This document shows, one piece after another, positions 6,544-33,175 of a stretch of 33,317 bases of DNA. This DNA comes from Sorangium cellulosum (GTDB lineage: Bacteria > Myxococcota_A > Polyangia > Polyangiales > Polyangiaceae). Made by a program: the position numbers and the translations under genes. The notes beneath the pieces are model-generated. The model was not told the DNA's origin. It ran no database searches and saw only the letters and a program-made list of their open reading frames with translations. Within the stretch, counting starts at the first letter, position 1; each line of letters starts with the position of its first letter. The stretch lies in NCBI RefSeq assembly GCF_001589285.1, contig NZ_JEMA01000291.1, positions 1 to 33,317 on the forward strand. Direction: 5' to 3'.

Positions 6544-7478
6544 CGAGCGAGGCCCTCTCCAAGCGAACGCGCCGCGAGCGCGGCCGCCGCGAGCGCGGCG
6601 AAGATCAGCGCCGCGAGCACAACGATCCGGCACGCCTCGTCGATGAGCCCCCGCCGGAGCGGCTCGATCGGGTCGCCGAGGCGGTAGTGGCCGCGCTTCT
6701 CGAGCTCGACGCGGAGCAGCCCGGCCATCGCCGCCATCGGCCGCCCCGCGTTCGGGCTCTCGGTGCGCCCGCCGTCGCGGAGGAGCACGGCGAGGCCGCG
6801 GCGCGCGTCGGCGCCGCGCAGCCACCCGGCGGCGATCAGCAGCAGCGCCGTGAGCCGCGCCGGCACGAAGTTCAGCGCGTCGTCGAGCCGCGCCGACGCC
6901 TTGCCGAGGTACTCGTAGCGGCCGTGGTAGCCCACCATCGCGTCGAGGGTGTTCACCGCCCTGTAGAAGAGCGCGCCCGGCAGCCCGAACAGGGCGAAGT
7001 AGAACAGCGGCGCGACGAAGCTGTCCGACGCGTTCTCCGCGACCGACTCGATCGACGCGGCCACGAGCGCGGGCTCGTCGAGCTCCGACGGGTCGCGGCT
7101 GCAGAGGCTCCGCAGGGCGCCGCGCGCCGCGGGGACGTCGCCGGCCGCGAGCGCGTCGCGCACGCCGGAGGCCGCGTCGCGGAGCGCGCGCAGCGCGAAG
7201 GTCGGCTTCAGAAAGAGTGCTGACAAAGCGAAGCCAACGACCGGGTGCGGGGCGATCAGCGCGGCGAGCCCGGCGCCCAGGGTTGCGAACAGGCAGGGGA
7301 CGGCGAGGGCCATGAGCGCGCCGAAGAGCAGCTCGGCCACGCGCCCGGACCGCGGCGCGCGGCGCTTCAGCGCCTGGATGGCCGAGCCCATCCACACGAC
7401 CGGGTGGACGGCGGCCGGCGGCTCGCCGCAGGCGAGGTCGAGCGCGACGGCGGCGAGCAGCGCGGCCGCGGCGGTCAT
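6540..7478 (-). CDS. cbiB: adenosylcobinamide-phosphate synthase (CbiB/CobD)
   Basis: A 312-residue integral membrane protein that joins aminopropanol phosphate (or aminopropanol) to cobyric acid. Family features are '[19 protein letters not shown]' at the N-terminus, '[40 protein letters not shown]' in the middle and '[15 protein letters not shown]' towards the C-terminus. Several hydrophobic segments fit four or five membrane helices. ATG at 7478 overlaps the cobU stop codon by four bases, and its own stop overlaps the cbiP start, so it is translationally coupled on both sides. The name cobD is used for this gene in the Pseudomonas scheme and should not be confused with Salmonella CobD, a decarboxylase. 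Confidence 0.96.
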
Positions 7479-8062
7479 CGCGCGTCCTCGGCGCCGGCGA
7501 GCGCGACAGGGCCGGGGCGCAGGCGCAGGACGGCGCCCATCACGGCCACGTAGAGCTCGCTGGCCGACCGGTTCAGCCGCTGGTGCGCGCGTCCGGCGAG
7601 GTCGCGGAAGGCCCGGCCGAGCCGGCTCTCGGGCACGACGCCCATGCCCACCTCGTTCGACACGAGGACGACGTGGGGCGTCGCGGACTCCACGGCGGCG
7701 GCGAGATCCTCGATGCGCGCCTCGATGCGATCGAGCTCACGGCCCTCGGTCTCGTCGCGGAGCAGCAGGTTCGACAGCCACAGGGTGAGGCAGTCGACGA
7801 CGACGACGTCGACGCTGGAGAGCGCGGCGATGCGCTCGGGGAGCGCGACAGGCTCCTCGATGGTGGTGAACTCGTCGCCCCGCTCGCGGGCGTGCGCGGC
7901 GATGCGCGCCCGCATCTCGTCGTCGAACGGCTCGGCGGTCGCGATGAACGCGCGGCGCGCGCCGAGCGAGCGCCCGAGCGCGAGCGCGAAGGCGCTCTTG
8001 CCGGAGCGCACGCCGCCGCCGACGAGGGCGATCCGCCGCGGCGCCGCGCGCTCGCCGCTCAT
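7475..8062 (-). CDS. cobU: adenosylcobinamide kinase / guanylyltransferase (CobU/CobP)
   Basis: A 195-residue bifunctional enzyme that phosphorylates adenosylcobinamide and transfers GMP to give adenosylcobinamide-GDP. The P-loop is GGGVRSGKS (about 15-23). The family signatures '[13 protein letters not shown]' and '[32 protein letters not shown]' are complete. ATG at 8062 overlaps the end of cbiA by four bases. The length matches the single-domain CobU family. The partner genes for the final steps (cobS, cobT and a phosphatase) are not in the window and must be elsewhere in the genome. Confidence 0.97.
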
Positions 8063-9555
8063 CGCCCGAGCTCCTCCCGGTGCGCGGCGGCGCTCGCCAC
8101 GAGCCCCTCGGGGACGAGCGGGTTCGAGGCCCAGTGCGCGTGCACGTACGAGGCGAGGACGCGCTGCGCCGAGTACCCCTCGCGCGCGACATGGCCGCCG
8201 CGCCGGCGGCGCACCGAGTAGGCGTGCTCGATCGGCAGGGGCGCCTGCGCGGCCGGCGGCTCCGGCGGCGCCGGCGCGGGCTGCGCGGGGCGGAGCTCCG
8301 AGTAGCGGAACTGGTGCCCGCGGAAGCGGAGCCCGGCGCCGCCCAGGATCGTGCGCGCCTGCGTCTCGACCTCCACGTAGCCGAGCGCCTGCAGCTTCTC
8401 GCACATCACGGCCTCCGCCGGCACGAGCCCGACCATGGGGTGCGCGCGCCCGTCGAGCGTGCGGATCGCCTCGGTCAGGTACATGAGCCCGCCGCACTCG
8501 GCGTAGATCGGCCCGCCGCGGCCGGCGAACGCGCGGATCTCCGCGCGCAGCCCGGCGTTCTCGGCCAGCCGCTCCGCGTGCGCCTCGGGGTAGCCGCCGC
8601 CGAGGTAGAGCGCGTCGACCTCGGGCAGGCGCGCGTCGCGGAGCGGCGAGAACCGCACGAGCTCGGCGCCCGCGGCCTCGAGGCGGCGCAGGTTGTCCGC
8701 GTAGTAGAAGTGGAAGGCCTCGTCGAACGCCACGCCGAGGCGCACGCGGCGCTGCTGCGCCCCGCCGCTCGCCGCGGTCCCGGCGCCGGCCGCTGCCGCG
8801 ACGGGCGCAGCCTCCGCCGCCGGCGCGGTCGCCTCCGCCGCCTGCGGCAACGCCGGCGCGCTGCGCGCGATCTCGAGCAGCGCGTCGAGCCCGATCCACG
8901 CCTCGGCCTGCGCGCCCCAGTGGTCGAAGCGCTCCTCCGGGAGCGCTGCCTCGTCGGCCGTGCGCAGGCCGAGGTGGCGCTCCGGGAAGCTCTGCGCCTC
9001 GTCCCGCGGCAGCCCGCCGATCACCGGCGTCGACCGGTTCGCCTGCGCCTGCGCCTGGCGGAGGATGTCGAGGTGCCCCCGGCTGCCGACCTGGTTGCAC
9101 ACCACGGCGGCCACGCGCACCCCCGGATCGAAGCCCGCGAACCCCTGCACCAGCGCCGCGACGCTGCGGGCCATCCCGGACGCGTCGACGACGAGCGCGA
9201 CAGGCGCCTCGAGCCACTTCGCGATCTCGGCCGTCGAGCCCTCTTCTCCGGTGGGGCTCGCGCCGTCGAACAGCCCCATCACCCCCTCGATCAGCGCCAC
9301 GTCGGCGCCCGCTGCCTCCGCCGCGAACGTCGACAGGACCGCGTCCCGGCCCATCATCCAGCCGTCGAGGTTGTGCGACGTCCGGGCGACGGCGCGCGCG
9401 TGGTACGTCGGATCCAGGTAGTCGGGGCCGCACTTGAACAGCGCGACCCGCAGCCCGCGGGCGCGGAGCGCGCGCGCGATCGCCACCGTGGTGGTCGTCT
9501 TCCCGACGCCGCTCGCCGTGCCGGCGACGACGAGCCGGGGGATGGCCAGGCTCAT
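8059..9555 (-). CDS. cbiA: cobyrinic acid a,c-diamide synthase (CbiA/CobB)
   Basis: A 498-residue glutamine-dependent amidotransferase for the a and c acetate side chains of (cobalt) cobyrinate. The N-terminal domain has the P-loop 'VAGTASGVGKTT' and 'KCGPDYLDPTYH', then 'IEGVMGLFDG'. The C-terminal glutaminase domain has 'LYLGGGYPEAH' and the nucleophile Cys354 in 'IYAECGGLMYL'. An Ala-rich linker (about 238-265) joins the domains, and a Pro/Ala-rich insert sits near 430, before 'GYSAQRVLASYVHAHW', where homologs normally have a short loop. Both are probably flexible additions. ATG at 9555 shares one base with the cobO stop codon (TGATG). Confidence 0.97.
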   Translation of the reverse strand: MSLAIPRLVVAGTASGVGKTTTTVAIARALRARGLRVALFKCGPDYLDPTYHARAVARTSHNLDGWMMGRDAVLSTFAAEAAGADVALIEGVMGLFDGASPTGEEGSTAEIAKWLEAPVALVVDASGMARSVAALVQGFAGFDPGVRVAAVVCNQVGSRGHLDILRQAQAQANRSTPVIGGLPRDEAQSFPERHLGLRTADEAALPEERFDHWGAQAEAWIGLDALLEIARSAPALPQAAEATAPAAEAAPVAAAAGAGTAASGGAQQRRVRLGVAFDEAFHFYYADNLRRLEAAGAELVRFSPLRDARLPEVDALYLGGGYPEAHAERLAENAGLRAEIRAFAGRGGPIYAECGGLMYLTEAIRTLDGRAHPMVGLVPAEAVMCEKLQALGYVEVETQARTILGGAGLRFRGHQFRYSELRPAQPAPAPPEPPAAQAPLPIEHAYSVRRRRGGHVAREGYSAQRVLASYVHAHWASNPLVPEGLVASAAAHREELGR

Positions 9556-10094
9556 CAGAAATCGACCCCGATCTGCGCCTTCGCGCCCTGCTCGAACGGG
9601 TGCTTCACCGACTTCATCTCCGTCACCAGATCGGCGAGCGCGACGAGCGCGTCCGGGGCGTTCCTGCCGGTGATCACCACATGAACGTGCGCGGGCCTCC
9701 CGCGCAGCGCCTCGAGGAGCTCTTCCTCCGCGACGAAGCCGTAATTCAGCGCATACGTGATCTCGTCGAGCACCACGATGTCCTGCTCGCCGCTCCCGAT
9801 GAGCGCCGCGGCCTCCTGGAAGGCAGCGCGCGCCGCCGCCTTGTCGCGCGAGAGGTCGTCGCTCTCCCAGGTGAAGCCGCGCCCCATCACGAGGAAGGTC
9901 AGGCCGGGGAGCGTCTCGGCGAACAGGCGCTCTCCCGTCTTCCACTTCCCCTTGATGAACTGCACGACGGCGACGCGCATGCCCCGGCCGAGCGCCCGGA
10001 ACACCATCCCGAGCGCGGCGGTCGTCTTGCCCTTGCCGTGGCCCGTATAGACGATGACGAGCCCTCGTCGACCTGCCGTTGCCTCGGCGCTCAC
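9555..10094 (-). CDS. cobO: corrinoid adenosyltransferase (CobO/CobA/BtuR type)
   Basis: A 179-residue enzyme that transfers the adenosyl group of ATP to Co(I) corrinoid. It carries the family P-loop GHGKGKTT (18-25), '[12 protein letters not shown]', 'DIVVLDEITYALNYG' and the 'HVVITGRNAP' segment, and the length is typical. The start is GTG at 10094, overlapping the cobM stop codon (GTGA). A Co(II) reductase is needed for the reaction but none is obvious in this operon; the FNR-like gene at 26727-27461 is one candidate. The first ~66 codons are repeated at 17791-17988 as a truncated copy. Confidence 0.96.
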   Translation of the reverse strand: MSAEATAGRRGLVIVYTGHGKGKTTAALGMVFRALGRGMRVAVVQFIKGKWKTGERLFAETLPGLTFLVMGRGFTWESDDLSRDKAAARAAFQEAAALIGSGEQDIVVLDEITYALNYGFVAEEELLEALRGRPAHVHVVITGRNAPDALVALADLVTEMKSVKHPFEQGAKAQIGVDF

Positions 10095-10885
10095 GAGCCC
10101 TCCTCGGCCGGGCGCGGATCGCGGGGCTTCTTCTCGGCCTTGCGGAACCGGTGGCTGAACTCCGGATCATAGAGCCGCGAGTCGGCGAAATCCGTGGACG
10201 TGAGCACCCGGCCGACGAGGATCATCGACTGGCTCTTGATCCCCTCGGCCCGCACCTTCTCCCGGATGTCGGCGAGCGTGCCAGTCACGATCTTCTGATC
10301 CGGGCAGCTCGCCTTGTGCACCACCGCGACCGGGCAATCGGCGCCGTAGGCCGGGATGAGCGCCGCTGTCACGTCCTTGAGCAGGGTGATGCTCAGGAAC
10401 AGGCAGAGCGTCGCCTGGTGGCGCGCGAGCTCCTCGAGCCGCTCGGCCGGCGGCACCGGCGTGCGCCCCTCGGCGCGCGTCAGGATCACGGTCTGCGACA
10501 GCTCGGGCAGCGTGAGCTCGCGCCCGAGCGCCGCCGCCGCCGCGGTGAACGACGAGACGCCGGGGATGATCTCGTAGGGGATCCCGAGCGCCTCCAGCCG
10601 GCGCATCTGCTCGGCGGTCGACCCGAAAAGCACCGGATCGCCCGTGTGCACGCGCGCCACGTCGTGCCCCGCCTCCCTGGCCTCGACGAAGACCTCCACG
10701 ATCTGATCGAGCGTCATGCCGGAGGAGTCGATGACCCGGGCGTCCGGCCGCGCGGAGGCCACGATCTCCCGCGGGACGAGGGAGCCCGTGTACATGACGA
10801 CGGGGCAGCGTGCGACGAGCTCGGCGCCGCGGACCGTGATGAGCCCGGGGTCGCCCGGGCCCGCGCCGATGATGTAGACGCGCAT
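10091..10885 (-). CDS. cbiF: (cobalt-)precorrin-4 C11-methyltransferase (CobM/CbiF)
   Basis: A 264-residue SAM-dependent methyltransferase for C-11 of the corrin precursor. It begins with 'VYIIGAGPGDPGLITVRGAEL', the tetrapyrrole-methylase glycine loop, followed by 'GMTLDQIVE', 'VARVHTGDPVLFGS' and 'EIIPGVSSFTAAAAALGRELTLPE', all typical of CobM/CbiF. ATG at 10885 has a GAGGAG site eight bases upstream. It is the first gene of the late operon. It is separated from the other ring methyltransferases (20801-25586) by the sugar block, although its step falls between those of CbiH and CbiG. Charged residues ('KAEKKPRDPRPAEEGS') form a short tail. Confidence 0.97.
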   Translation of the reverse strand: MRVYIIGAGPGDPGLITVRGAELVARCPVVMYTGSLVPREIVASARPDARVIDSSGMTLDQIVEVFVEAREAGHDVARVHTGDPVLFGSTAEQMRRLEALGIPYEIIPGVSSFTAAAAALGRELTLPELSQTVILTRAEGRTPVPPAERLEELARHQATLCLFLSITLLKDVTAALIPAYGADCPVAVVHKASCPDQKIVTGTLADIREKVRAEGIKSQSMILVGRVLTSTDFADSRLYDPEFSHRFRKAEKKPRDPRPAEEGS

Positions 10886-13993: not shown

Positions 13994-14013
13994 CGCGCGT
14001 GACGTCACGCGCG
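13994..14013. promoter_or_regulatory. perfect 20-bp palindrome upstream of the sugar-binding protein gene
   Basis: CGCGCGTGACGTCACGCGCG is a perfect inverted repeat centred 96 bp before the start of the binding-protein gene, in the 152-bp gap after the mutarotase gene. It may be an operator for a second control point inside the operon. It differs from the TGTGAACGTTCACA sites. Confidence 0.5.
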
Positions 14014-14099
14014 CGCTCCAGGGCAGCCAGCGTTGTCGGGTCGTGGACGCCGCGCAGGGCGTCGACGCGGTCAAGAGTCAATCAGCAAGGAGACGTGCC

Positions 14100-17766: not shown

Positions 17767-17789
17767 GCGCTCCGGGGGCCGGGCGGATC

Positions 17790-18004: not shown

Positions 18005-18037
18005 ACGGGGAGAGCGCGGCACTGGCTTCGGGGCGGA

Positions 18038-18137
18038 GCCCCGGGGAAGCCAGCTTCCGGCGCGAGCGCGAAGGCTTCCGGAGCGGCGCCCCGGGGAGGC
18101 CAGCATCCGGCGCGAGCGCGAAGGCTTCCGGAGCGGC
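18038..18137. repeat. 50-bp tandem direct repeat, two copies
   Basis: Units 18038-18087 and 18088-18137 are perfectly adjacent and differ at two positions (18047/18097 and within 'cagcttccgg'/'cagcatccgg'). Each contains 'cgcgagcgcgaaggcttccg'. A shorter related piece ('ggcttcggggcggagcc') precedes the first unit. The rest of the gap to 18200 has no visible gene. Confidence 0.9.
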
Positions 18138-18200
18138 GCGGGCTGTGACGCTAGCTCAGCGGATCACTCCGAGGTCGTTGATTGACCGAGTCCCAAGCGA

Positions 18201-18803: not shown

Positions 18804-18809
18804 GGCTCA

Positions 18810-19792: not shown

Positions 19793-20383
19793 GTCGTCGA
19801 CATTGTCCACTGCTCGTGCTGGACCATAGCCCGGAACGTCCCGTCCCGCATCACCGGCTGCGCGGATCCCCGAGGCTGCCGTCCAGGGGGCGCCCACCCA
19901 GCCGGCAGCCGGCCGCGCGACGGAGACGGCGATCGGCTTGCTGGTTCACCTCGGTCGTTCGCCCCCACGGATCGAGCCGATCGTCCCACGTTGGGCCCGA
20001 CGGCCGTGCGTGTCGCTCCCGGCCGCTCCGTTGCCCCCCTGCTCGCGGCTGCCAACTTGGCCGCCGTGGCCGGCTGCGGAGCCGCCGCCCGTGCCGCCAT
20101 ATCGCCCTGCGCGCCGGGGGACGTGTAGCTATCCCAGTCCGCACCGAGGATCTGGGAGCTGCCAGTGGCGAGCGCCTCCACGAGCCATCCCGCAGCCGAC
20201 CGTCCAGCGACATGCGCCTGCTCCATCGTCACCAGGCTCCGCTCTTGGTGCGCTGTTTGTCAAATTAGGCGCAAGGGCGTAAAGGCGCAACAGAAGGCAA
20301 ATTTCATGCGTCTTTGCGTCTTTGCGTTGAAATCTCTCTCCTCTCGCGAGGCAGGTCCGTGGCAGGATTTCTGACCCGCGGTA
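19793..20383. other. gap between the toxin-like gene and the corrin operon
   Basis: 591 bp with no secure gene. A minus-strand frame from GTG 20232 ('MTMEQAHVAGRSAAGWLVEAL', then an Ala-rich stretch) looks protein-like for about 90 codons. It is in a different frame from the toxin-like gene and could be its broken N-terminus. The part 20256-20345 is strikingly AT-richer than its surroundings and holds the hairpin at 20268-20328. Confidence 0.55.
20268..20328. repeat. long imperfect hairpin with 8-bp periodic arms
   Basis: The arms 20270-20289 and 20307-20326 pair over 20 consecutive positions in plus-strand RNA, 16 Watson-Crick and 4 G-U, with a 17-nt loop. Each arm is built of an ~8-bp unit (gcgtcttt twice in the right arm). 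It lies 56 bp downstream of the last corrin-operon gene, so it may act as a terminator, but it also looks like a dispersed repeat. Confidence 0.65.
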
Positions 20384-20800
20384 CTAAAGGCAGCGCAGCA
20401 CGTTGTCGCGCACGAGCTGCCAGATCGGCTCCGGGATGTCCCCGAGCCACCGCGCGTCCCGCTCGACCGGCGCCTCGGCGTCGTCGAGCGGGTCGTCGGG
20501 GCTGTAGACGAGCCGCCAGAGCCGCTCGCTCACCGAGCCGTTCCTGTCGATCACGAAGCGCTGGACGAGCTTCTTCGCGAGCTCCTCGCCCTCGACGTCG
20601 AGCAGCAGCGCCGGCGCCGCCACCGTGACCTCGCGCAGCGGCTTGAGCCGGAGATACGCCCCCTTCACGAGCTCGACCTCGTCCGGCGGCTCGAACCCCG
20701 CCTCCCGGAAGTCGACAGGGGCCTTCGTGTTGCCGACGAGGTAATACTCTCCCTGGGTCTCGGCGAGGATCGCGCCGCCCAGCCTCCCTACGCGTGCCAT
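20384..20800 (-). CDS. conserved-looking hypothetical protein at the end of the corrin operon
   Basis: A 138-residue protein with no domain I recognise. It starts 'MARVGRLGGAILAETQGEYYLVGNTKAPVDFREAGFEPPDEVELVKGAYLRLKP' and ends with a charged helix 'IPEPIWQLVRDNVLRCL'. No signal peptide or membrane segment is visible. Its ATG directly follows the cbiH stop codon with no spacer (TAGATG), so it is translated with the operon. High GC and codon use match the cobalamin genes, unlike the cassette beyond it. It is probably a real lineage-specific member of the pathway or a passenger. Function unknown. Confidence 0.8.
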   Translation of the reverse strand: MARVGRLGGAILAETQGEYYLVGNTKAPVDFREAGFEPPDEVELVKGAYLRLKPLREVTVAAPALLLDVEGEELAKKLVQRFVIDRNGSVSERLWRLVYSPDDPLDDAEAPVERDARWLGDIPEPIWQLVRDNVLRCL

Positions 20801-21643
20801 CTAGACCTCCTCCGCGGTGACGCTCTCGTCCGAGAGCACGAGCGTGCGCCCCGGCGTCTGGCCCGGGAGCGCCTCCCCATCCCATGTGTACTTGTTTGTA
20901 TATCCGCGCGGGGTGACCATGTATCCCTCGAACATGAAGGTGTTGGTCGAGCCGACGAGCACCGTGGTCAGCATCCCGATCTCGTAGTCGAGGAAGTGGT
21001 CGACGTCGGTGAGCACGGCGCTCTCCAGCTTGCGGTAAGCGCTCTTCACCAGCGCGACAGGCGTCGTGCCCGCCCGGTGCTGGCGGATGATCTCCTGGGC
21101 CCGCACGATCTGGCGCGTGCGCCGCCCGCTCGCCGGATTGTAAAGGCCGATGACGAAGTCGGCCGCGGCGGCGGCCTCGAGCCGCCGCTCGATGACCGGC
21201 CACGGCGTCAGGAGGTCGGACAGGGAGATGGCGCAGAAGTCGTGCCCGAGCGGCGCGCCGACGAGCGACGCGCACGCGTTGAGCGCGGTCATGCCGGGCA
21301 CGATGCGCAGCTCCGGCGACTCGCCCCGCTTCCAGCCGATCTCCTCCAGCACCTGGAAGACGAGCCCGGCCATGCCGTACACGCCCGCGTCGCCCGACGA
21401 GATGATCGCGACCCGCCCGCCGTCCCGCGCCCGCTCCACAGCGGCGCGCGCCCGGCCGATCTCCTCGGTCATGCCGGTCTTGATGATCTCCTTGCCCTCG
21501 ATGAGGTGCTTCACCAGCCGGATGTACGTCGTGTACCCCACGATGAGATCCGACGCGGCGATCGCCTCCAGGGCGGCGCGGGACGCGTGCGCCTCGGCGC
21601 CGGGGCCGATCCCGACGATCGACAGGACTCCTTTGTCACCCAT
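20801..21643 (-). CDS. cbiH: (cobalt-)precorrin-3B C17-methyltransferase (CbiH/CobJ)
   Basis: A 280-residue SAM-dependent methyltransferase that methylates C-17 and drives ring contraction. Signatures are 'LSIVGIGPGAEAHASRAALEAI', 'GDAGVYGMAGLVFQVLEE', 'IVPGMTALNACASLVGAPLGHDFCAISLSDLLTPW', 'FVIGLYNPASGRRTRQ' and 'VLVGSTNTFMFEGYMVTPRGY'. ATG at 21643 has a GAGGAG site and overlaps the end of cbiG by eight bases. In the early-cobalt route, CbiH makes cobalt-precorrin-4, the substrate of CbiF encoded 10 kb away. CbiG directly upstream uses the product of CbiF. Confidence 0.97.
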   Translation of the reverse strand: MGDKGVLSIVGIGPGAEAHASRAALEAIAASDLIVGYTTYIRLVKHLIEGKEIIKTGMTEEIGRARAAVERARDGGRVAIISSGDAGVYGMAGLVFQVLEEIGWKRGESPELRIVPGMTALNACASLVGAPLGHDFCAISLSDLLTPWPVIERRLEAAAAADFVIGLYNPASGRRTRQIVRAQEIIRQHRAGTTPVALVKSAYRKLESAVLTDVDHFLDYEIGMLTTVLVGSTNTFMFEGYMVTPRGYTNKYTWDGEALPGQTPGRTLVLSDESVTAEEV

Positions 21644-22775
21644 GACTCTCCTCGATGGTGCGCTTCGCGAACGGGACGCGCGCCACGGCGAGCGTCATGG
21701 ACCGCCCCACGCCCTCCTCCGTGTACGCCCGCTTCGGCATGAGCAGCTTCTTGGCCCCCGCCGCGCGCAGGGCGGCCGGCTCGGCGACGCCCCGGGCGCC
21801 CACGTGCTTCTTCACGGTCTCGGACGGGTTCTCGATCCCCTCGGTCGCGTCGAGCTCCTCGGGCGTGAACGTCACGAGCGGCCACCCCCGCCGCGCCGAC
21901 AGCGCGAGCAGCGCCTCCTCGTCGGCCTTCTTGTCGATCGTCGCCAGCGCCTTCACGCATGCCGCCGAGAGCCCGTGCTCCGCGAGCAGCCTGTCGACCC
22001 CGCGCTCGACCATGTCGAGCGGCGCGCCGCGGTCGCAGCCGACGCCGAGGACGAGGCTCTTCGGCCGGTAGACGACGGCGCGCTCGACGATCGCCGGGTG
22101 CGAGCGGGCGAGGTCGCGGTCGCTCGCGACGAGGAGGATCTCCCACGCTTCCGGGTCCACGCCGTCGAGCGACGTCGCGTAGCGCACGCCGGGCGGGAGC
22201 GGCTTGTCCTCGGGCCAGAACGACGGCTCGCCCGTCTCCTGGACGAACAGCACGGGCGCGGCGTTCACGACGGCGGCGCAGCCGCGGGTCACGTTGCGGT
22301 CCGGGTCGTCGAGCGTCCAGCCGAGCTCCCGGCCGAGGATGTCGACAGTCAGCGTCCCGAGCGCGTCGGACGCCGTTGTCACCACCGGCAGCGCGCCGAG
22401 CAGCGAGGCCACCTTCTCGGTGAACGCGTTGCCCCGCCCCACATGCCCGGAGAGCACGCAGATCGAGAACCGCGCCGTGTCGTCGACGCAAACGACCGCC
22501 GGATCGACCTTCTTGTTCTTCAAGAGCGGCGCGATCATCCGCACCACGGCGCCGACGCTGATCACGAACACGTGGCAGTCGTAGGCGGTGAACGCCTCGT
22601 TGAGCAGCGGCCCCATCGGCAACGGGAGCGGCTTCGCGCCCTCCGGCGCCCCGTCGAAGAGCTTCTGCGACACGTAGAGATCCGCGCCCGGGAGCCCCTC
22701 GGCGAGCTTCCGCGCGATGGCGATCCCGTGGCGGGTGATCGCGTAGAGGGCGTACGGCTTCCGCGCGGCGATCAT
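21636..22775 (-). CDS. cbiG: cobalt-precorrin-5A hydrolase (CbiG)
   Basis: A 379-residue enzyme that opens the delta-lactone of cobalt-precorrin-5A and releases acetaldehyde. The N-terminal half has 'YAITRHGIAIARKLAEGL', 'VFVISVGAVVRMIAPLLKNKKVDPAVVCVDDTARFSICVLSGHVGRGNAFTEKVA' and 'VTTASDALGTLTVD'. The C-terminal half has 'LVLGVGCDRGAPLDMVERGVD' and 'ALATIDKKADEEALL', both typical of CbiG. Length is normal for the stand-alone protein. CbiG is a marker of the oxygen-independent route. ATG at 22775 overlaps the cbiL stop codon by four bases. Confidence 0.97.
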   Translation of the reverse strand: MIAARKPYALYAITRHGIAIARKLAEGLPGADLYVSQKLFDGAPEGAKPLPLPMGPLLNEAFTAYDCHVFVISVGAVVRMIAPLLKNKKVDPAVVCVDDTARFSICVLSGHVGRGNAFTEKVASLLGALPVVTTASDALGTLTVDILGRELGWTLDDPDRNVTRGCAAVVNAAPVLFVQETGEPSFWPEDKPLPPGVRYATSLDGVDPEAWEILLVASDRDLARSHPAIVERAVVYRPKSLVLGVGCDRGAPLDMVERGVDRLLAEHGLSAACVKALATIDKKADEEALLALSARRGWPLVTFTPEELDATEGIENPSETVKKHVGARGVAEPAALRAAGAKKLLMPKRAYTEEGVGRSMTLAVARVPFAKRTIEESHG

Positions 22776-23572
22776 GACATCTCCGGTTCGTTAACTGCCT
22801 TATCGAAGCTGCCCGGCAGCGAGGCCTCGGCCTCCCCGACGAGCAGCCCGCTGCGCTCGCCGCGCGTGACGACGACCATGGCGAAGCAGTCGCCCCGCTC
22901 GCCCTGCGCGGCGCGGAGGTCCCGGACGATCCGCTGCTCGGGCATCGTCGCCTTGGACACGAACACGGCCCGATCGAGCAGGCCTGCCCGCGTGAGCGCC
23001 TCGGTCACCTTCGGCATCTCCGGGCCGATCTTCATCAGGACCACTGTGTCGAAGCGCTTGAGCACGTCGGTCAGGTCGTCGACGCCGTACGTGGCGGGGA
23101 GGATGGCGATCCGCTCCTGCCCGTCGGCGAGCGACAGCCCGCTCACGGCCGGGACCGCTGTGACCGAGGTGACGCCGGGGACGACCTCGACCTCGAGCCC
23201 GGGGAGGCGGCGGAGCGCCTCGCGGCGGACATAGACGAACGTGCTGAAGAGCGACGGATCGCCCTCGGTGGCGAAGGCGACGGAGAGGCCGCGCGAGAGC
23301 CGCTCGACGATCTTGTCGACGGCCGCCTCGACGTAGGGCCGGACGCGATCCGGGTCCTTGCTCATGGGGAAGGTGAGGAGCAGCCGCTCCTGGTCCTGCC
23401 GCTTGCCGACGACCGGCGAGAGGATCCGGTAGGCCATCGAGGCGCCGAAATCCGAGCTGCGGGGGAGCGCGAGCACGTCCGCGCCCTCGAGCACGCGCAC
23501 GGCCCGCAGCGTGAGCAGGTCCGGCGCGCCCGGGCCGACGCCCACGCCGTGGAGCTTGCCGAGGCCGCTCAT
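22772..23572 (-). CDS. cbiL: (cobalt-)precorrin-2 C20-methyltransferase (CbiL/CobI)
   Basis: A 266-residue SAM-dependent methyltransferase for C-20. It shows 'KLHGVGVGPGAPDLLTLRAVRVLEGADVLALPRS', 'FATEGDPSLFSTFVYVRREAL', 'VVPGVTSVTAVPAVSGLSLADGQERIAILPATYG' and 'DTVVLMKIGPEMPKVTEAL', the standard order for this family. ATG at 23572 overlaps the cbiET stop codon (ATGA). It acts right after CbiX inserts cobalt and the precorrin-2 oxidation step. Confidence 0.97.
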   Translation of the reverse strand: MSGLGKLHGVGVGPGAPDLLTLRAVRVLEGADVLALPRSSDFGASMAYRILSPVVGKRQDQERLLLTFPMSKDPDRVRPYVEAAVDKIVERLSRGLSVAFATEGDPSLFSTFVYVRREALRRLPGLEVEVVPGVTSVTAVPAVSGLSLADGQERIAILPATYGVDDLTDVLKRFDTVVLMKIGPEMPKVTEALTRAGLLDRAVFVSKATMPEQRIVRDLRAAQGERGDCFAMVVVTRGERSGLLVGEAEASLPGSFDKAVNEPEMS

Positions 23573-24858
23573 GAAGCCTCCGGGGGGGACGGCGCCGCGC
23601 CGGGCGCCGCTTCCTGCGCCTTCGCCGGCTTCGTCGCGGCGAAGATGTGGATCGGGTTCAGCGCCTCGTAGCGCATGTAGCGCGCGAGCGGGACGCCGCG
23701 CGAGACCGAGAGCAGGGTGATCTCGGGGTCGAGCCCCCGCGCCCGGAGCGCGCGGTACGTCTCGGCCACGTTCTCCATCGTGATCGCGTTGACCACGAGC
23801 CGGCCGCCGGGCCGCAGCCGATCGAGCGCCGCCGTGATGATCTCCTCCATGCTCCCCTTGCTCCCGCCGACGAACACCGCGTCCGGGTCCTCGAGCGCGC
23901 CGAGCGCCTCGGGCGCGCGGCCCGCGACGACGCGCACGTTGTCGACCCCGTGCGCGCGGACGTTGTCCCTGCAGATCTCCACGCCCTCCGGGTCGACCTC
24001 GATCGCGTAGACGCGCCCGAGGGGGCAGAGCATCGCCGCCTCGATCGAGACCGACCCCGAGCCGGCGCCGACGTCCCAGACCACCGCGTCGGGGCGGATC
24101 GCCATCGACGCGATCGAGAGCATGCGCACCTCGCGCTTCGTGATCAGGCCGTTCTTCGGCATGCGCTTGGCGAAGGCGTCCTCGTGCAGGTAGGGGACGG
24201 CCGGAGCGGGCCGCCACGCCGGGTCGCTGCGCAGGAGCAGGAGCACGTTGAGCGGCCCGATGTCCTCGCACGACGCGAGCGCGGCGAGCTCGAACGCGCG
24301 CACGCGCTCGCCCGCGCCCGCGAGGCTCTCGCAGACCCACGCCTTCCAGCCGGTGTCGCCGTGCTCGAGGAGCCGCGCCGCGAGGCGGGCCGGGGAGCTC
24401 TCGCCGTCGGTCAGCACAGCGACCTTCGAGAGCCGGCGCAGGCGCGTCGCGAACCCCTCGGGTGAGCGCCCGTGGACCGACACGAACGCCGCGTCGTCCC
24501 AGGCGATGCCCGTGCGCGCGAACGCCCACTGGACCGAGCTCAGGCTCGGGATGATCTCGACGTGCTCGCCGCCGAGCTTCCGGACGACGAGCGCGCCGAT
24601 CCCGAAGAACAGCGGGTCGCCCGAGGCGAGGATGCACACGTTCTGCTCGGCCGACAGGCTCTCCACGCGGTCGAGCACGGCGGAGAGCCCGCCCTTGAGG
24701 GCGATCTTCTCGCCGCGGAACTGCGGGAAGAACTCGAGGTGCCGCTCGCCCCCCACGAGCACCTCGGCCCGCGCGACAGCGGACGCGGCGCGGCTCGACA
24801 GGCTGGCGCACCCGTCGTCGCCGATGCCGACGACGGTCACGGCGCGGCGCGCGCTCAT
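23569..24858 (-). CDS. cbiET: fused precorrin-6B C5,15-methyltransferase / C12-decarboxylase (CbiET, CobL-like)
   Basis: A 429-residue fusion. The N-terminal CbiE part (about 1-210) starts 'VTVVGIGDDGCASLSSRA' and has 'ILASGDPLFFGIGALVVRKLG' and 'VSVHGRSPEGF'. The C-terminal CbiT part (about 230-405) has 'LITKREVRMLSIA', the SAM-binding 'VWDVGAGSGSVSIEAAML' (VGAGSGS at 263-269) and 'AVFVGGSKGSMEEI'. CbiT methylates C-15 and decarboxylates the C-12 acetate, and CbiE methylates C-5. Fusion occurs in many bacteria (CobL), while Salmonella has separate genes. A Pro/Ala-rich tail ends the protein. ATG at 24858 overlaps the cbiC stop codon. Confidence 0.97.
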   Translation of the reverse strand: MSARRAVTVVGIGDDGCASLSSRAASAVARAEVLVGGERHLEFFPQFRGEKIALKGGLSAVLDRVESLSAEQNVCILASGDPLFFGIGALVVRKLGGEHVEIIPSLSSVQWAFARTGIAWDDAAFVSVHGRSPEGFATRLRRLSKVAVLTDGESSPARLAARLLEHGDTGWKAWVCESLAGAGERVRAFELAALASCEDIGPLNVLLLLRSDPAWRPAPAVPYLHEDAFAKRMPKNGLITKREVRMLSIASMAIRPDAVVWDVGAGSGSVSIEAAMLCPLGRVYAIEVDPEGVEICRDNVRAHGVDNVRVVAGRAPEALGALEDPDAVFVGGSKGSMEEIITAALDRLRPGGRLVVNAITMENVAETYRALRARGLDPEITLLSVSRGVPLARYMRYEALNPIHIFAATKPAKAQEAAPGAAPSPPEAS

Positions 24859-25586
24859 CGCGACACCTGGGCCGGCTCCGGGGCGACGGTCGCCTGCGCC
24901 GATTCCGCCGATTCCGCCGAGAGGAGCAGCAGCGCGTGGACGATGGCGACGGCGATCGGGCTCCCCCCCTTGCGCCCGCGCGCCACGATGGACGGGAGCC
25001 CGGACTCGATCAGCGCCTCCTTCGACTCCGCCGCCGACACGAACCCGACAGGCACGCCGATCACGAGCGCCGGCCGCGCGCCCTCCTCGCGGGCGAGGCG
25101 CACCACCTCGAGCAGCGCCGTCGGCGCGTTGCCGATCGCCACGATCGCCCCGTCGAGCAGCCCGAGCCGGTGCGCCTTGCGCATCGACTCGATCGCGCGG
25201 GTCGAGCCGGCCGCCGACGCGGCCTGGATGACGTCGTCGTCCGAGATGAAGCAGTGGATCTTGCAGCCGTAGGAGGCGAGCCGCTGCTCGTTCAGGCCGA
25301 CGCCGATCATCTTCACGTCGACGAGGACCGGCGCGCCGCCCTTGAGCGCCGCGATGCCCCGCGCGATCGCCTCGGGGTGGAGCCGCATGAGCGACGAGAA
25401 CTCGAAGTCCGCCGTCGCGTGGATCACGCGGCGGACGACCTGCCACTCCGCGTCCGGGAACCCGTGGTCGCCGACCTCCTCGTCGATGATCGCGAAGCTC
25501 CTGTCCTCGATGCGCCGGCCGAGCGCGGTCATCTGCCGCATGTCGTTCGCCGCGCGCGCGTCTGCACCGGTCATCGCACCGCTCAT
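24855..25586 (-). CDS. cbiC: (cobalt-)precorrin-8X methylmutase (CbiC/CobH)
   Basis: A 243-residue enzyme that moves the methyl group from C-11 to C-12 to make (cobalt) cobyrinate. 'VVRRVIHATADFEFSSLMRLHPEAI' contains the catalytic His of the family, followed by 'VLVDVKMIGVGLNEQRL', 'AIVAIGNAPTALLEVVRLAREEGARPALVIGVPVGFVSAAESKEAL' and 'GRKGGSPIAVAIVHALL'. ATG at 25586 overlaps the cbiD stop codon; an in-frame ATG at 25574 is an alternative. The C-terminal 'SAESAESAQATVAPEPAQVSR' is an extra low-complexity tail. Confidence 0.97.
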   Translation of the reverse strand: MSGAMTGADARAANDMRQMTALGRRIEDRSFAIIDEEVGDHGFPDAEWQVVRRVIHATADFEFSSLMRLHPEAIARGIAALKGGAPVLVDVKMIGVGLNEQRLASYGCKIHCFISDDDVIQAASAAGSTRAIESMRKAHRLGLLDGAIVAIGNAPTALLEVVRLAREEGARPALVIGVPVGFVSAAESKEALIESGLPSIVARGRKGGSPIAVAIVHALLLLSAESAESAQATVAPEPAQVSR

Positions 25587-26710
25587 GGCTCCTCCGCTCT
25601 GTCTTCCCCGGCGCCGCCGGCCGGGTACCGGCCGAGCAGCGCCCCGTTGAAATCGACGAGGCACGCGTGCACCTCGAGGGCGCCTCCCGCGTGCCGCGAC
25701 GTGTGCTCGACGACGCGCCGGCAGATCCCGCCGGGCACGCCGGTGAGCCCCTCGCGCTGGCACAGCTCGAGCACGTGGCGCGCGGTGTTCGCCTGCCGGA
25801 TCTCCGCCGCGATCTCGGGCCGCGCGCCGAGCTCCTCGGCGATCTGCGCGAGCAGCTCCATGCTCACCTCCGAGCCGGCCGCGTGCGTCATCATCTTGCC
25901 GTCGGCCATCTTCGAGAGCTTGCCGATCATGCCGACGATGATCGCGCGGGCGATCCGCCGCCGCGCGGCGTGGCGCACCCCGGTGCCGATGAAGTCGCCC
26001 ACCTGGATGAACGACTCCTCCGGCAGCTCCGGGTAGAGCTTCATCGCGTACGCCTCGGACTTGCCGCCGGTGGTCAGCGCCAGCGTCGCGATGCCGCGCT
26101 CGGCCGCGACGTCGATCGCCTGCACCACGCTCGCGCGGAAGGCGGCGGTCGAGTACGGCTTCACGATCCCGCTCGTCCCGAGGATCGAGATCCCGCCGAT
26201 CAGCCCGAGGCGCGCGTTGATTGTCTGCTTCGCCATCTCCTCGCCCTGGGGGACGCTGATCGTGACCGTGGCTCCGGCGAAGCCCGAGCCCTCGAGCTCC
26301 TCGAGGACCATCTCGGTGATGTTCCGGCGCGGCACGGGGTTCACGGCGGGCGCGCCGACCGCCAGCCCGAGCCCCGGCTTGGTGACGACGGCGACCCCGT
26401 CGCCGCCGCGGATCTCGACGCCCGGCTCGCGGCGGAGCTCGACCTCGGCGACGAGCTCGGCGCCGTGGGTGCAGTCCGGGTCGTCGCCGGCGTCCTTGAT
26501 GACGCTGCACGTCGCGCGCGGCCCGTCGCGGTCGCAGCGCTTCAGCGGGAAGGTCACCCGCTGCCCGTTCGGCAGCGTCGTCTCGATGGCGTCGACCGCC
26601 GCGCCGCGCGCGAGCACGCGCGCCGCCGCCTTGGCCGCGGCGGCCGCGCACGCGCCCGTCGTGAACCCCTCGCGCTGCCCTTTCGGGTCCCTCGGCCGGA
26701 GCTCTGCCAT
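25583..26710 (-). CDS. cbiD: cobalt-precorrin-5B C1-methyltransferase (CbiD)
   Basis: A 375-residue methyltransferase of the CbiD family, another marker of the oxygen-independent route. It has the N-terminal 'REGFTTGACAAAAAKAA', 'CSVIKDAGDDPDCTHG', 'GDGVAVVTKPGLGLAVGAPAVNPVPRRNI', 'GGISILGTSGIVKPYSTAAFRASVVQAIDVA' and 'IGMIGKLSKMADG'-type segments in the expected order. ATG at 26710 has AGGA seven bases upstream and lies 16 bp after the FNR-like gene. The next pathway step after CbiD is reduction of cobalt-precorrin-6A, for which no CbiJ or CobK gene is visible in the window. Confidence 0.97.
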   Translation of the reverse strand: MAELRPRDPKGQREGFTTGACAAAAAKAAARVLARGAAVDAIETTLPNGQRVTFPLKRCDRDGPRATCSVIKDAGDDPDCTHGAELVAEVELRREPGVEIRGGDGVAVVTKPGLGLAVGAPAVNPVPRRNITEMVLEELEGSGFAGATVTISVPQGEEMAKQTINARLGLIGGISILGTSGIVKPYSTAAFRASVVQAIDVAAERGIATLALTTGGKSEAYAMKLYPELPEESFIQVGDFIGTGVRHAARRRIARAIIVGMIGKLSKMADGKMMTHAAGSEVSMELLAQIAEELGARPEIAAEIRQANTARHVLELCQREGLTGVPGGICRRVVEHTSRHAGGALEVHACLVDFNGALLGRYPAGGAGEDRAEEP

Positions 26711-26726: not shown

Positions 26727-27461
26727 TTACAACGACTTCTTCAGCGGGTTGTTGAAGAAGCTCTCCAGGAGCACGCTGCCCTCCGGCGCGCCGAGCGAGG
26801 CGAGCCGGTCGCGGATCGGGTAGATGACGGCGCCGTCGCCCGCGCAGAGCACGGCGTCGCGGGGCCCGTCGGCGACGTGATCGCCGACGAGCGCGCACGC
26901 GCGCGCCGGCCGCTCGGGGTGGCCGACAGGGAGGAAGCCGCCGGCGACAGTCAGGCGGGCGGCGGCGGGGAGGCGCTCGCGGACGAACGCCTCGGGGACG
27001 AAATAGTCGCCTTCCTCGACGAGCCAGAGCAGGTCGAGCTGCGCGGCGCCGGCGGCGGCCGCGCTCCGCGCGATCCCGAGGGCCGCGGTGATCCCGGTGT
27101 CGGTGGCGATCACGAGCGCGCGGCCGGAGAAGCCGGGCGGGAGCCGCAGCTTGCCCCAGGGGCCGCTCCACTCGAGCTCCGCGCCCACGGCGATGTCGTT
27201 GAGCACGTTCGACGCCGGCCCGGCGCCGATGCGCTTGACCGCGATCTCGACGGCGCGCTGCTCGGCGTCGCTCGAGAGCATGGAGTAGGCGCGCTTCGCG
27301 AGCTTGCCGCCGGGCAGGGTGACCCCGCTGTTGATGATCACGTACTGCCCGCCGGCGAAGCCAAGCTCCGCGCCGTCGACGCGCTCGACGCGCAGCAGCC
27401 GGGCGCCCTGCCCGATCGGCTCCGCGTGGGCGATCCTGATCTTCGCGCTGCCCTGGGCCAT
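26727..27461 (-). CDS. ferredoxin-NADP reductase-like flavoprotein in the corrin operon
   Basis: A 244-residue protein of the FNR superfamily. It has the FAD-binding RAYS (57-60), 'GPASNVLNDIAVGAELEWSGPWGKLRLP', the pyridine-nucleotide loop 'ATDTGITAALGIAR' (from 119), 'CAGDGAVIYPIRDRL' (from 206) and a C-terminal 'FFNNPLKKSL'. There is no iron-sulfur domain, so it is a simple two-domain reductase. ATG at 27461 has GGAG about eight bases upstream. It sits between the DUF3209-like gene and cbiD. It may reduce cobalt-precorrin-6A in place of CbiJ/CobK, reduce Co(II) corrinoid for CobO, or pass electrons to the CbiX iron-sulfur domain. All three are inferences from context. Confidence 0.85.
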   Translation of the reverse strand: MAQGSAKIRIAHAEPIGQGARLLRVERVDGAELGFAGGQYVIINSGVTLPGGKLAKRAYSMLSSDAEQRAVEIAVKRIGAGPASNVLNDIAVGAELEWSGPWGKLRLPPGFSGRALVIATDTGITAALGIARSAAAAGAAQLDLLWLVEEGDYFVPEAFVRERLPAAARLTVAGGFLPVGHPERPARACALVGDHVADGPRDAVLCAGDGAVIYPIRDRLASLGAPEGSVLLESFFNNPLKKSL

Positions 27462-27483: not shown

Positions 27484-27885
27484 TCACTCGGCCGGCGCTG
27501 ATTCCTCGGATTGCTCTGCCGGGTAGATCTCGTGAACGAAGTCGTGCATCTCCTCGAGCTCCCTGTAGAGCCGGCCGAGCCCGTCGACCTGGGCGCGGAG
27601 GTCGAGCTCGACCTGCTTCGTGAGGATGAGCAGCGAGCGCAGGTAAGGCAGCTTTGCGTCCCCCGTCGGGGTCTTCGCGACCTTCTCCTGGAGCTCGGCG
27701 AGCGACCCCTCGAACAGGCGCGAGAGGCTCCTGAGATCTCCGGCGCGCAGCATCGCCGAGACAGGACCCGGCTCGGCCGCCGCGGGGCCGAGCTCGGCGA
27801 GCTCGTGCGCGCGCTCGCCGGGGTCGTCGATGCCCAGGATGTTCATGAGCCCAAGGCGGAGCGCGGCGATCTCGTGACAGGCCAT
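27484..27885 (-). CDS. DUF3209-like small protein, first gene of the corrin operon
   Basis: A 133-residue, mostly helical protein starting 'MACHEIAALRLGLMNILGIDDP', with a Cys-His pair at residues 3-4. From memory this start matches the DUF3209 family, which occurs in haloarchaeal cobalamin clusters; I could not check it. The rest ('LYRELEEMHDFVHEIYP') looks like a helical bundle, and no catalytic motif is visible. ATG at 27885 has AGGAGA about eight bases upstream. It is followed after 22 bp by the FNR-like gene, so the two are co-transcribed with cbiD and the rest. It could be a partner or metal-handling factor. Function unknown. Confidence 0.8.
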   Translation of the reverse strand: MACHEIAALRLGLMNILGIDDPGERAHELAELGPAAAEPGPVSAMLRAGDLRSLSRLFEGSLAELQEKVAKTPTGDAKLPYLRSLLILTKQVELDLRAQVDGLGRLYRELEEMHDFVHEIYPAEQSEESAPAE

Positions 27886-31163: not shown

Positions 31164-32351
31164 TCACTGCATGATGTCGTCGACGAGCCGCGCCACGAGC
31201 CGGTCGCCGAGCAGGTGCTCTTCCACGAGGTCCTTCGCGTCCTCCTCGCGGACGCCGCGGTACCAGACCCCGTCCGGGTAGACGGCCACCGTCGGCCCCT
31301 CGCCGCAGCGCCCCATGCACGACGTCCTCGTCACGCGGATCTGCTGCTGCTGGCCCGCCTGCTTCAGGCGCCGGCGCAGCGCCTCGAGCAGCGCCAGGCT
31401 GCCGCGGTCCACGCAGTCGGCGTTGCCGCAGACGAGCACGTGCTTGCGCAGCGAGCGGTGCGCGTGCGGGTGGTTCGACGCCTGCGTGTGCGTCAGCGTG
31501 TGGCGGACGCTGTAGAGCATCGCCTTCAGCCCGCCGACCTCGCGCGCGAGGCCCGGCAGGGCCGTGCGGTACATGCATGTGTCGCAGGGGAGGGGCGCCT
31601 CGCCGGCGAGCGCCTGGCGCGCGCGCTCGTCGATGAGCCCGGACAGCGCGCTCGACCGGCCGAGGTGCGGCGCGAGCGACGCGCGGATCCACGGGTACGT
31701 CGCCGAGAAGCGGTCGACCTGCTCGGCGAGCCTGGTCATGAGCCGCCCGGCGAAGAGGAAGTAGGGGACGACAACGACGCGCTCGGGCCGCTGGCGCGCG
31801 ACGCGCTCGAGCGTCTCCTCGACCGAGGGCCGGGTGATGCCGATGAAGGTCGGCTCGACGAGCTGGAGCCCCCGGCCCTCGCCGATGAGCCGCGCCATCT
31901 TGCAGAAATCGCCGTTCGCGTCCGGGTCGCTGGCCCCGCGCCCCACCACGACGAGCGCCGTCCGGGCGCGCGCCGCCGGCTCCTCCGGCAGCACGGACGC
32001 CGCCCGCTCGAAGGCGATCTCCGCGAGCGCCGGGTGCACGCCGAGGGGCCGCGCCGCGGAGAAGCGCACGCCCGGGAAGGCGGCCCGCGCCTGCTCGAGC
32101 GCGAGCGGGATGTCGTTCTTCACGTGCCCCGCCGCGAACAGGAAGAGCGGCACGACGGCCACCCGGGACACCTGCGCCGCGAGCGCCGCGAGCGCGTCGG
32201 CGAGGTGCGGCGTCGCGAGCTCGATGTAGCCGTGCTGCACGACGAGCCCGGGCCGCGCCGCGCGGTGCTCGGCCACGAGCGCCTCGAACTCGGCGTTCGA
32301 CGCGGCGTCGCGGCTGCCGTGGCCGATCAGCAGGAGCCCTTCGTCATGCAT
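31164..32351 (-). CDS. cbiX: sirohydrochlorin cobaltochelatase with C-terminal [2Fe-2S] ferredoxin domain (long CbiX)
   Basis: A 395-residue protein that inserts cobalt into sirohydrochlorin. Residues 1-125 form the active chelatase half with metal-binding His11 ('LIGHGSRD') and His76 ('FAAGHVKND'). Residues 130-245 are the second half, where both His are replaced by Arg ('VGRGASDPDAN', 'FAGRLMTRL'), as expected for CbiX. A CDTCM motif (Cys256, Cys259) and a His-rich stretch (284-304) follow, then a thioredoxin-like ferredoxin domain with Cys308, Cys313, Cys345 and Cys349 ('VCGNADC', 'SCMGRC'). Early cobalt insertion marks the oxygen-independent pathway. ATG at 32351 lies 25 bp inside the end of cbiO. 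The Fe-S role (redox sensing or electron transfer) is not known. Confidence 0.95.
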   Translation of the reverse strand: MHDEGLLLIGHGSRDAASNAEFEALVAEHRAARPGLVVQHGYIELATPHLADALAALAAQVSRVAVVPLFLFAAGHVKNDIPLALEQARAAFPGVRFSAARPLGVHPALAEIAFERAASVLPEEPAARARTALVVVGRGASDPDANGDFCKMARLIGEGRGLQLVEPTFIGITRPSVEETLERVARQRPERVVVVPYFLFAGRLMTRLAEQVDRFSATYPWIRASLAPHLGRSSALSGLIDERARQALAGEAPLPCDTCMYRTALPGLAREVGGLKAMLYSVRHTLTHTQASNHPHAHRSLRKHVLVCGNADCVDRGSLALLEALRRRLKQAGQQQQIRVTRTSCMGRCGEGPTVAVYPDGVWYRGVREEDAKDLVEEHLLGDRLVARLVDDIMQ

Positions 32352-33175
32352 GCGAGCGCCTCCTCCAGGGTGAGCGGAAGTCCTGCGCGGCCGCGCGGCT
32401 CGGCCGGGGTCATCCGGGTCCAGAGCTCCGCGACCCACGGCCGCCGCAGGCGCGCCCGCGCGAGCAGCTCCCCCCGCGCGAACACCTCCCGCGGCGGCCC
32501 GTCCGCGAGGACCTGCCCGTCGCCGAGCAGGACCGCGCGCGTGGCGAAGAGCGGCACGAGATCGACAGCGTGCGTCGCGGTGACGAGCGTGGTCCCCTGC
32601 TGCTCCGAGAGCGCGCGCAGCGTCCGGCACAGGGCGAGCTCGCCCTCGGGGTCGAGCCCCGCGGTCGGCTCGTCGAGCAGCAGCACGCGCGGCTGCATCG
32701 CGAGCATCCCGGCGATGCACGCGCGCTTGCGCTCGCCGAAGCTCAGCGCCTCGATCGCGCGATCGGCGAGGTGCGCGATCTGCACGGCGGAGAGCGCCGC
32801 CTCCGCGCGGCGCCGCGCCTCGGGCGCGGGCAGGCCGAGGTTGCGCGGGCCGAAGAGGACGTCGTCGAGGAGGGTCGCGCCGAGGAGCTGGTCGTCCGGG
32901 TCCTGGAGCACGAGCGCGGCGCCCGCGGCGACGGCGTCCGACGGCGAGCCGACGCGGCGGCCCGCGATCTCGACGCCGCCGCCGGGCGCGGGGAGGAGCC
33001 CGACGAGCGCGCGGAGCAGCGCTGTCTTGCCGGCGCCGTTGCCGCCGAGCACCGCCACGGACTCGCCCTCGGCGACGTCGAGGCGCACGTCGCGCAGCAC
33101 GGCCGCGCAGCCGCGGTAGCCGATCGCCGTCGCGCGCATCGCGATCGCCGGCGCGCGCAGCGCGATCGCGCTCAC
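32327..33175 (-). CDS. cbiO: cobalt ECF-type ABC transporter ATP-binding protein (CbiO)
   Basis: A 282-residue ATPase of the energy-coupling-factor cobalt importer. It has Walker A GGNGAGKT, the Q-loop 'VLQDPDDQLLGATLLDDVLFGPRNLGLP' characteristic of CbiO/EcfA, signature 'LSFGERKRACIAGML' and Walker B 'VLLLDEPTAGLDPEGE' with His in 'TATHAVDLV'. GTG at 33175 overlaps the stop codon of cbiQ (GTGA). The stop codon lies inside cbiX, so import and chelation are translationally coupled. The ~35-residue C-terminal extension after 'DGPPREVFARGELLARARL' is common in CbiO. Confidence 0.95.
   Translation of the reverse strand: MSAIALRAPAIAMRATAIGYRGCAAVLRDVRLDVAEGESVAVLGGNGAGKTALLRALVGLLPAPGGGVEIAGRRVGSPSDAVAAGAALVLQDPDDQLLGATLLDDVLFGPRNLGLPAPEARRRAEAALSAVQIAHLADRAIEALSFGERKRACIAGMLAMQPRVLLLDEPTAGLDPEGELALCRTLRALSEQQGTTLVTATHAVDLVPLFATRAVLLGDGQVLADGPPREVFARGELLARARLRRPWVAELWTRMTPAEPRGRAGLPLTLEEALACMTKGSC

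Follow-up and report, generated by a model that had tools for sequence, protein, structure and literature searches.

How is cobalt-precorrin-6A reduced in a cobalt-early (anaerobic) vitamin B12 pathway that lacks the reductase CbiJ? The question is raised by a stretch of 33,317 nucleotides from Sorangium cellulosum (contig NZ_JEMA01000291.1 of assembly GCF_001589285.1; hereafter the window), which encodes CbiX, CbiL, CbiH, CbiF, CbiG, CbiD, CbiT/E, CbiC, and CbiA and thereby, as judged by Pfam and NCBIfam matches, all ring steps from CbiL to CbiA with the exception of CbiJ. Directly before cbiD on the minus strand, with a gap of 16 nt, lies a gene for a flavoprotein of the FNR superfamily (hereafter FNR). 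A first-pass annotation, made from the sequence, had suggested this protein as a replacement for CbiJ, and its account of the ring steps and of the place of the gene agrees with what we find. The fixed position of the gene, the FAD fold of its product, the cobalamin riboswitches of related loci, and the absence of CbiJ from the carriers together make it very likely that FNR is a dedicated redox part of the CbiJ-less cobalt-early pathway, and we put the probability that it is itself the cobalt-precorrin-6A reductase at roughly 40%.

According to the literature passages that deal with the CbiJ gap, it has been reported for two decades in organisms whose pathway is nearly complete in other respects. 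These passages describe CbiJ as missing in deltaproteobacteria other than Desulfuromonas (a 2004 study, PMC545781), in Geobacter except on a G. lovleyi plasmid (PMC3543383), and in archaea, Thaumarchaeota included (PMC4303638), and they treat EC 1.3.1.106 as a pathway gap in haloarchaea, beside unassigned cluster genes (PMC8305020). Contrary to the archaeal picture of PMC4303638, our control Methanocaldococcus jannaschii does match the CbiJ model PF02571 over cut-off. The same passages name no replacement, and a literature search across titles and the openings of abstracts returned no FNR proposed for the CbiJ step and no step assigned to LB_163, the Leptospira counterpart described below. For one set of lineages, the present locus offers a candidate that is concrete, consists of a single gene, and can be tested.

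The FNR protein and its relatives

The FNR gene (26727-27461) starts with an ATG at 27461 and encodes 244 amino acids, and its third-position GC of 0.98 is like that of cbiD. The sole Pfam match of the protein is FAD_binding_6 (PF00970; 6.1e-10), which is unchanged at E≤1. The FAD motif, described as intact in the first-pass annotation, is indeed so: KRAYS occupies residues 56-60, and R57-A-Y-S60 together with G81, S84, and N85 is invariant in 10/10 FNR orthologues (RxYS and GxxS being the two FAD motifs of the superfamily). The nucleotide motif, which had also been called intact, is not. Canonical members of the superfamily usually carry GGTGxxP and CGPxxM at the NAD(P)H site, whereas in FNR these places are taken by ATDTGITA (ATDTGIT, residues 119-125) and AGDG, as aligned with 1krh for both motifs and with 2eix for the first, and NAD_binding_1 (PF00175) finds no match in the Pfam scan, E≤1 included. 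FNR thus shares with its superfamily the overall fold and the KRAYS and GxxSN motifs of the FAD domain, but differs from it in ATDxGITA and AGDG, in the lack of a PF00175 match, and in having no ferredoxin domain of its own. Its AlphaFold model consists of an FAD beta-barrel and one nucleotide-type domain, i.e., the FNR fold, and the best Foldseek match of the model is phthalate dioxygenase reductase, an electron donor to [2Fe-2S].

With respect to CbiJ/CobK (PF02571, TIGR00715), the proposed step is the same, after CbiD/CobF, but fold and sequence are unrelated. CobK is composed of two Rossmann domains, as stated in an excerpt of PMC4663756; the model of FNR does not show such a two-Rossmann architecture without a flavin domain, and no CbiJ model matches FNR in Pfam (E≤1) or in NCBIfam (E≤0.001). 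The Pfam models of siderophore-interacting proteins (ferric-siderophore reductases) are unmatched by FNR in the whole-library scan, and its structural match to these proteins is no better than that to many other FNR-fold proteins. The corrin reductase CobR is also a flavoprotein of the B12 pathway but belongs to a different family, presumably PF01613, for which FNR has no match in the Pfam scan (E≤1 included).

A genome-wide scan recovered FNR relatives from three Sorangium strains and from metagenome-assembled genomes of Planctomycetales (L042), Deltaproteobacteria (L043), and Elusimicrobia (L044); a plasmid search added Leptospira interrogans (two records), and the FNR profile, run on 395 genomes from the phylum of genome G144, picked out G144, G511, and G694. 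True orthologues score 327-401 bits and other FNRs of the genomes searched at most 88 bits, a broken copy in So ceGT47 being set aside. This second copy (L045, 9925-10588; 137 and 85 bits) is accompanied by the first residues of CbiD and lies ~125 kb from the intact cluster.

We observe a common gene order in 10/10 loci, with CbiX fused to a ferredoxin (CbiX-Fdx), DUF3209, FNR, and then CbiD (nine loci) or CbiC-CbiD (L044). DUF3209 adjoins FNR in nine of the 10 and in the window ends 22 nt before it. CbiX-Fdx is separated from DUF3209 by other genes in the window, L039, and L041 and by ~1.4 kb in L044. The break point is not the same in all Sorangium strains: extra genes follow DUF3209 and precede FNR in So ceGT47 (L040, 5617-10001), whereas the window, So ce26, and So0157-2 have theirs between CbiX-Fdx and DUF3209. 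In all FNR-type loci that are long enough (8/8; L043 and L044 end before that point), cbiH is followed by a gene that we call orf138, which in Leptospira is fused to the C-terminus of CobJ. The plasmid of Candidatus Manganitrophus (L038), with CbiD and CbiC and no FNR or DUF3209 match, was left out of the counts, and CbiA matches were left out of the annotation of the relatives' loci.

The Leptospira counterpart, WP_000160081.1, is 34% identical to FNR of the window and occupies the corresponding position in an identical gene order. We equate it with LB_163 because of the gene order tabled in PMC4758666, which makes LB_163, the "flavodoxin reductase" of the cobI/III cluster, an orthologue of the window protein; in the sections drawn on here, Fouts et al. 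(2016; PMC4758666) list it without assigning a step. Furthermore, a cobalamin riboswitch is present in all five relative loci scanned (L036, L039, L041, L042, L141). In L141 and L036 it precedes CbiX-Fdx by ~160-210 nt; in L039, L041, and L042 it lies further up, upstream of a cbiO-like gene. No riboswitch reaches the gathering threshold in the window, where, going by these positions, a counterpart would fall near or beyond the edge.

Absence of CbiJ, DUF3209, and operon type

The genome-wide search for cbiJ/cobK recommended in the first-pass annotation returned nothing: neither PF02571 nor TIGR00715 (E≤1) has a match in the whole 11.86 Mb host assembly. We rule out a missed CbiJ on the basis of these two models and of a BLAST search of six CbiJ proteins against 15 loci, the sole match of which (43 residues in L142, E 4e-4) was taken as chance. 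The cluster is unlikely to stem from contamination of this assembly (1269 contigs, 7.94% contamination), because three closed Sorangium chromosomes carry the same cluster, with FNR proteins 82-88% identical to that of the window. CbiJ over cut-off is likewise found in 0/9 genomes with an FNR orthologue, the three closed chromosomes included; a 16.4-bit match in G694, under cut-off and inside a 474-amino-acid frame, was taken as chance.

The anticorrelation between FNR and CbiJ, set beforehand as a test, is borne out among CbiD genomes. The test set (n = 30) comprises the 23 genomes with CbiD out of 246 sampled from the phylum of G143, together with G000, G127, G140-142, G144, and G145, and it was these 30 genomes, not all 246, that were searched for CbiJ, FNR, and DUF3209 (completeness figures are not given for G140-G145 or for the phylum samples of G143 and G144). 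CbiJ passes the cut-off in 18 genomes (in G374 by a fragment only) and an FNR orthologue is present in seven, with zero overlap. With G511 and G694 as two further FNR carriers without CbiJ over cut-off, CbiJ is present in 0/9 carriers versus 18/23 non-carriers (Fisher, P = 7e-5; P = 0.007 when the carriers are collapsed to four lineages), P values that ignore shared ancestry among the non-carriers, all CbiJ genomes coming from one phylum sample. The host's own phylum is unusable for this comparison, since in its sample of 140 genomes CbiD occurs in two and CbiJ over cut-off in none (two matches lie below it); FNR has one orthologue there (522 bits; next 57).

DUF3209 follows the same pattern. 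Its members are small proteins in which Cys, Glu, and His residues are conserved, and a relative of unnamed function has been solved (2EHW); we take them to handle metal next to the chelatase rather than to act as reductases. DUF3209 is present in 9/30 CbiD genomes, namely in G127, G190, and all seven FNR carriers. CbiX adjoins DUF3209 in Thermus pTT27, Halorubrum, G127, and G190, and a ferredoxin domain is found by Pfam in 5/6 CbiX proteins tested (Thermus being the exception) and in that of the window. For Leptospira, Thermus, and haloarchaea, the whole-genome search for CbiJ extended to those represented among 14 control genomes. Two of these controls, Thermus composti and Haloferax volcanii, carry DUF3209 and give no CbiJ match over cut-off; Sulfolobus acidocaldarius and Methanosarcina acetivorans encode CbiD but neither DUF3209 nor a CbiJ over cut-off. 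DUF3209 therefore goes with the absence of CbiJ, yet part of that absence is left unaccounted for. As an observation in its own right, DUF3209 beside CbiX tracks this absence more widely than FNR does (window, L036, L037, L134, L135, L120/L148), and the pair offers a pointer for where to look in some of the remaining lineages. Near the pair of DUF3209 and CbiX-Fdx in G190, a second open reading frame (L148, 3194-3808) contains a stretch 34% similar to the CbiX-fused ferredoxin domain.

Clusters with CbiJ look different. In the five that were opened (of 18 genomes, picked for cbiD and cbiJ lying close on one contig), CbiJ comes after CbiH, neither DUF3209 nor orf138 is seen, and four have a short or CbiC-joined CbiX, the fifth (L144) showing none. 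Comparison with the DUF3209/CbiX clusters shows that there are at least two operon types, and part of the CbiJ-less type has FNR and orf138 in addition; no orf138 turned up in the FNR-less clusters that were opened, and in the stretches covered it was seen only with FNR.

A number of observations weigh against a direct replacement of CbiJ by FNR. CbiJ is found in 0/9 genomes with DUF3209 versus 18/21 without it. G127 and G190 have DUF3209 while both CbiJ and FNR are absent from their whole genomes, and neither gene was seen in the DUF3209-type cluster stretches of Thermus pTT27 and Halorubrum, so that another solution must exist there and FNR cannot be a general replacement for CbiJ. CbiJ-less CbiD genomes with neither DUF3209 nor FNR exist as well (G166, G173, G211). 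The link between FNR and CbiJ loss is confounded with operon type and could also be one of lineage: pairwise identities of FNR and CbiC in eight taxa correlate with r = 0.94 (28 non-independent pairs), as expected for a block inherited together, and the association is inherited as such a block, so that the lineages are few. In So ceGT47, ~4 kb separate DUF3209 from FNR. The NAD(P)H-site motifs, as read from the alignment, are altered, and we know of no precedent for a precorrin reductase of the FNR fold. In Sorangium comparisons dN/dS is 0.44-0.49 for FNR versus 0.12-0.21 for CbiD, DUF3209, and CbiG; the gene is under purifying selection, but weaker than that on its neighbors. Finally, two strains, L. 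santarosai 1342KT and L. alstoni 80-412, are reported to have lost LB_163 while keeping the rest of the listed cluster (PMC4758666); the authors see cultivation in B12 medium as the cause, and the growth data that they cite conflict as to whether Leptospira needs B12.

The suggested replacement of CbiJ therefore stands in part: anticorrelation and fixed place speak for it, whereas DUF3209 anticorrelates equally well, operon type is confounded with FNR, and the reaction is one that we infer.

Candidate roles of FNR

Three reductions in the pathway could call for FNR: that of cobalt-precorrin-6A, the redox change around cobalt-factor III and ring contraction, and that of Co(II) to Co(I) for CobO. 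We favor the first, because it is the only one tied to a gene that is missing in the carriers and because FNR stands beside cbiD in 9/10 loci. The FAD in the beta-barrel domain would take its electrons from NAD(P)H bound in an atypical manner or from the [2Fe-2S] domain that is fused to CbiX, and the reduced FAD would hand a hydride to cobalt-precorrin-6A, the product of the enzyme encoded by the next gene, CbiD, in a two-electron reduction that would precede the action of CbiT and CbiE. The most specific version, an unrelated kind of precorrin-6A reductase with the FNR fold, a remodelled nucleotide site, and electrons passing from the CbiX-fused [2Fe-2S] domain through FAD and on as hydride to cobalt-precorrin-6A, seems unlikely when taken as a whole. 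If true, Sorangium, Leptospira, and the recorded Planctomycetales, Elusimicrobia, and Deltaproteobacteria would have a second type of operon (CbiX-Fdx, DUF3209, FNR, orf138) that does without CbiJ.

FNR may instead act as an electron carrier that exchanges with the CbiX-fused [2Fe-2S] domain, with CbiX-Fdx, DUF3209, or orf138 carrying out the missing reduction or the one that goes along with the contraction of the cobalt-factor III ring at CbiH. We regard this as possible, if somewhat on the unlikely side: FNR-fold proteins usually work with [2Fe-2S] partners, as does phthalate dioxygenase reductase, the best Foldseek match, CbiX-Fdx and DUF3209 belong to the FNR gene run in 10/10 loci, and both are also found in CbiJ-less clusters that lack FNR, in which a general reductase could substitute. 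The restriction of orf138 to FNR loci fits as well, but its product has no Pfam match at E≤1, no NCBIfam match, and only a low-confidence model (pLDDT 66.5) with no fold match at E≤0.001, and DUF3209, as said, reads as a metal handler. That FNR provides CobO with Co(I) corrinoid by reducing the Co(II) form, as CobR does in the aerobic pathway, appears improbable; in enteric bacteria a flavin reductase or flavodoxin makes the Co(I) corrinoid for the adenosyltransferase, but in all 10 loci the neighbor of FNR is cbiD or cbiC rather than cobO, FNR lacks a PF01613 match, and Co(I) is needed by every B12 producer, which would leave the absence of CbiJ from the carriers unexplained.

It is very improbable, in our view, that FNR is an accessory (e.g., in cobalt or flavin recycling) while an unrelated general reductase or a non-enzymatic or non-canonical step replaces CbiJ. 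The reports cited above of CbiJ missing from many archaea, several deltaproteobacteria, and Geobacter are in line with such a step, as are our controls Thermus, Sulfolobus, and Methanosarcina acetivorans, in which CbiD is present and CbiJ does not pass the cut-off, but it would explain neither the stable place of FNR before cbiD or cbiC in distant lineages nor its co-divergence with CbiC.

Separately, we observe a PF01613 flavin reductase upstream of cbiD in G127, a genome of the host's phylum with neither CbiJ nor FNR (L119, 5000-5545), possibly a CobR-like or other reductase.

The B12 cluster of the window

In the order of transcription, the cluster runs from CbiX-CbiX-[2Fe-2S] ferredoxin through genes identified by eye as TetR-like and ABC transporter genes to DUF3209, FNR, CbiD, CbiC, CbiE-T, CbiL, CbiG, CbiH, and orf138 and, after an interruption, continues with CobM/CbiF, CobO, CbiA, CbiB, and CbiP. 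NCBIfam cut-offs are passed by CbiL, CbiH, CbiD, CbiE, CbiT, CobM/CbiF, CobO, CbiA, CbiB, and CbiP, and Pfam cut-offs by CbiG and CbiC.

Table 1. Features of the B12 cluster in the window, listed along the transcribed strand with the transporter ATPase last
Feature	Coordinates	Strand	Basis and remarks
Two CbiX domains fused to thioredoxin-like [2Fe-2S] ferredoxin	31164..32351	-	Pfam
DUF3209 (PF11483), immediate upstream neighbor of FNR	27484..27885	-	Pfam; solved relative 2EHW
FNR-fold flavoprotein, 244 aa	26727..27461	-	PF00970, motifs, AlphaFold model
CbiD	25583..26710	-	TIGR00312
CbiC, precorrin-8X methylmutase	24855..25586	-	PF02570; start codon inferred
CbiE-CbiT fusion	23569..24858	-	TIGR02467, TIGR02469; start codon inferred
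CbiL/CobI	22772..23572	-	TIGR01467; start codon inferred
CbiG	21636..22775	-	PF11760, PF11761, PF01890
CbiH/CobJ	20801..21643	-	TIGR01466
orf138, no family match	20384..20800	-	Co-travels with FNR; fused to CobJ in Leptospira
CobM/CbiF	10091..10885	-	TIGR01465; start codon inferred
CobO, corrinoid adenosyltransferase	9555..10094	-	NCBIfam
CbiA/CobB	8059..9555	-	NCBIfam; start approximate
CbiB	6540..7478	-	NCBIfam
CbiP/CobQ	4975..6543	-	NCBIfam; start codon inferred
Cobalt-type ABC transporter ATPase	32327..33175	-	Best matches under curated cut-offs

The interruption consists of ~9 kb of seemingly unrelated genes (10978-20384; epimerase, mutarotase, and ribose-type ABC transporter, by eye) that split the cob cluster; in So ce26 (L039) cobM comes directly after orf138. 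Near 17.8-18.0 kb on the minus strand there is an apparent truncated second copy of the start of cobO. In addition, two adjoining frames of ~400 amino acids with a Cys-rich C-terminus (2073-3311 and 3528-4736) look, by eye, like a tandem duplication.
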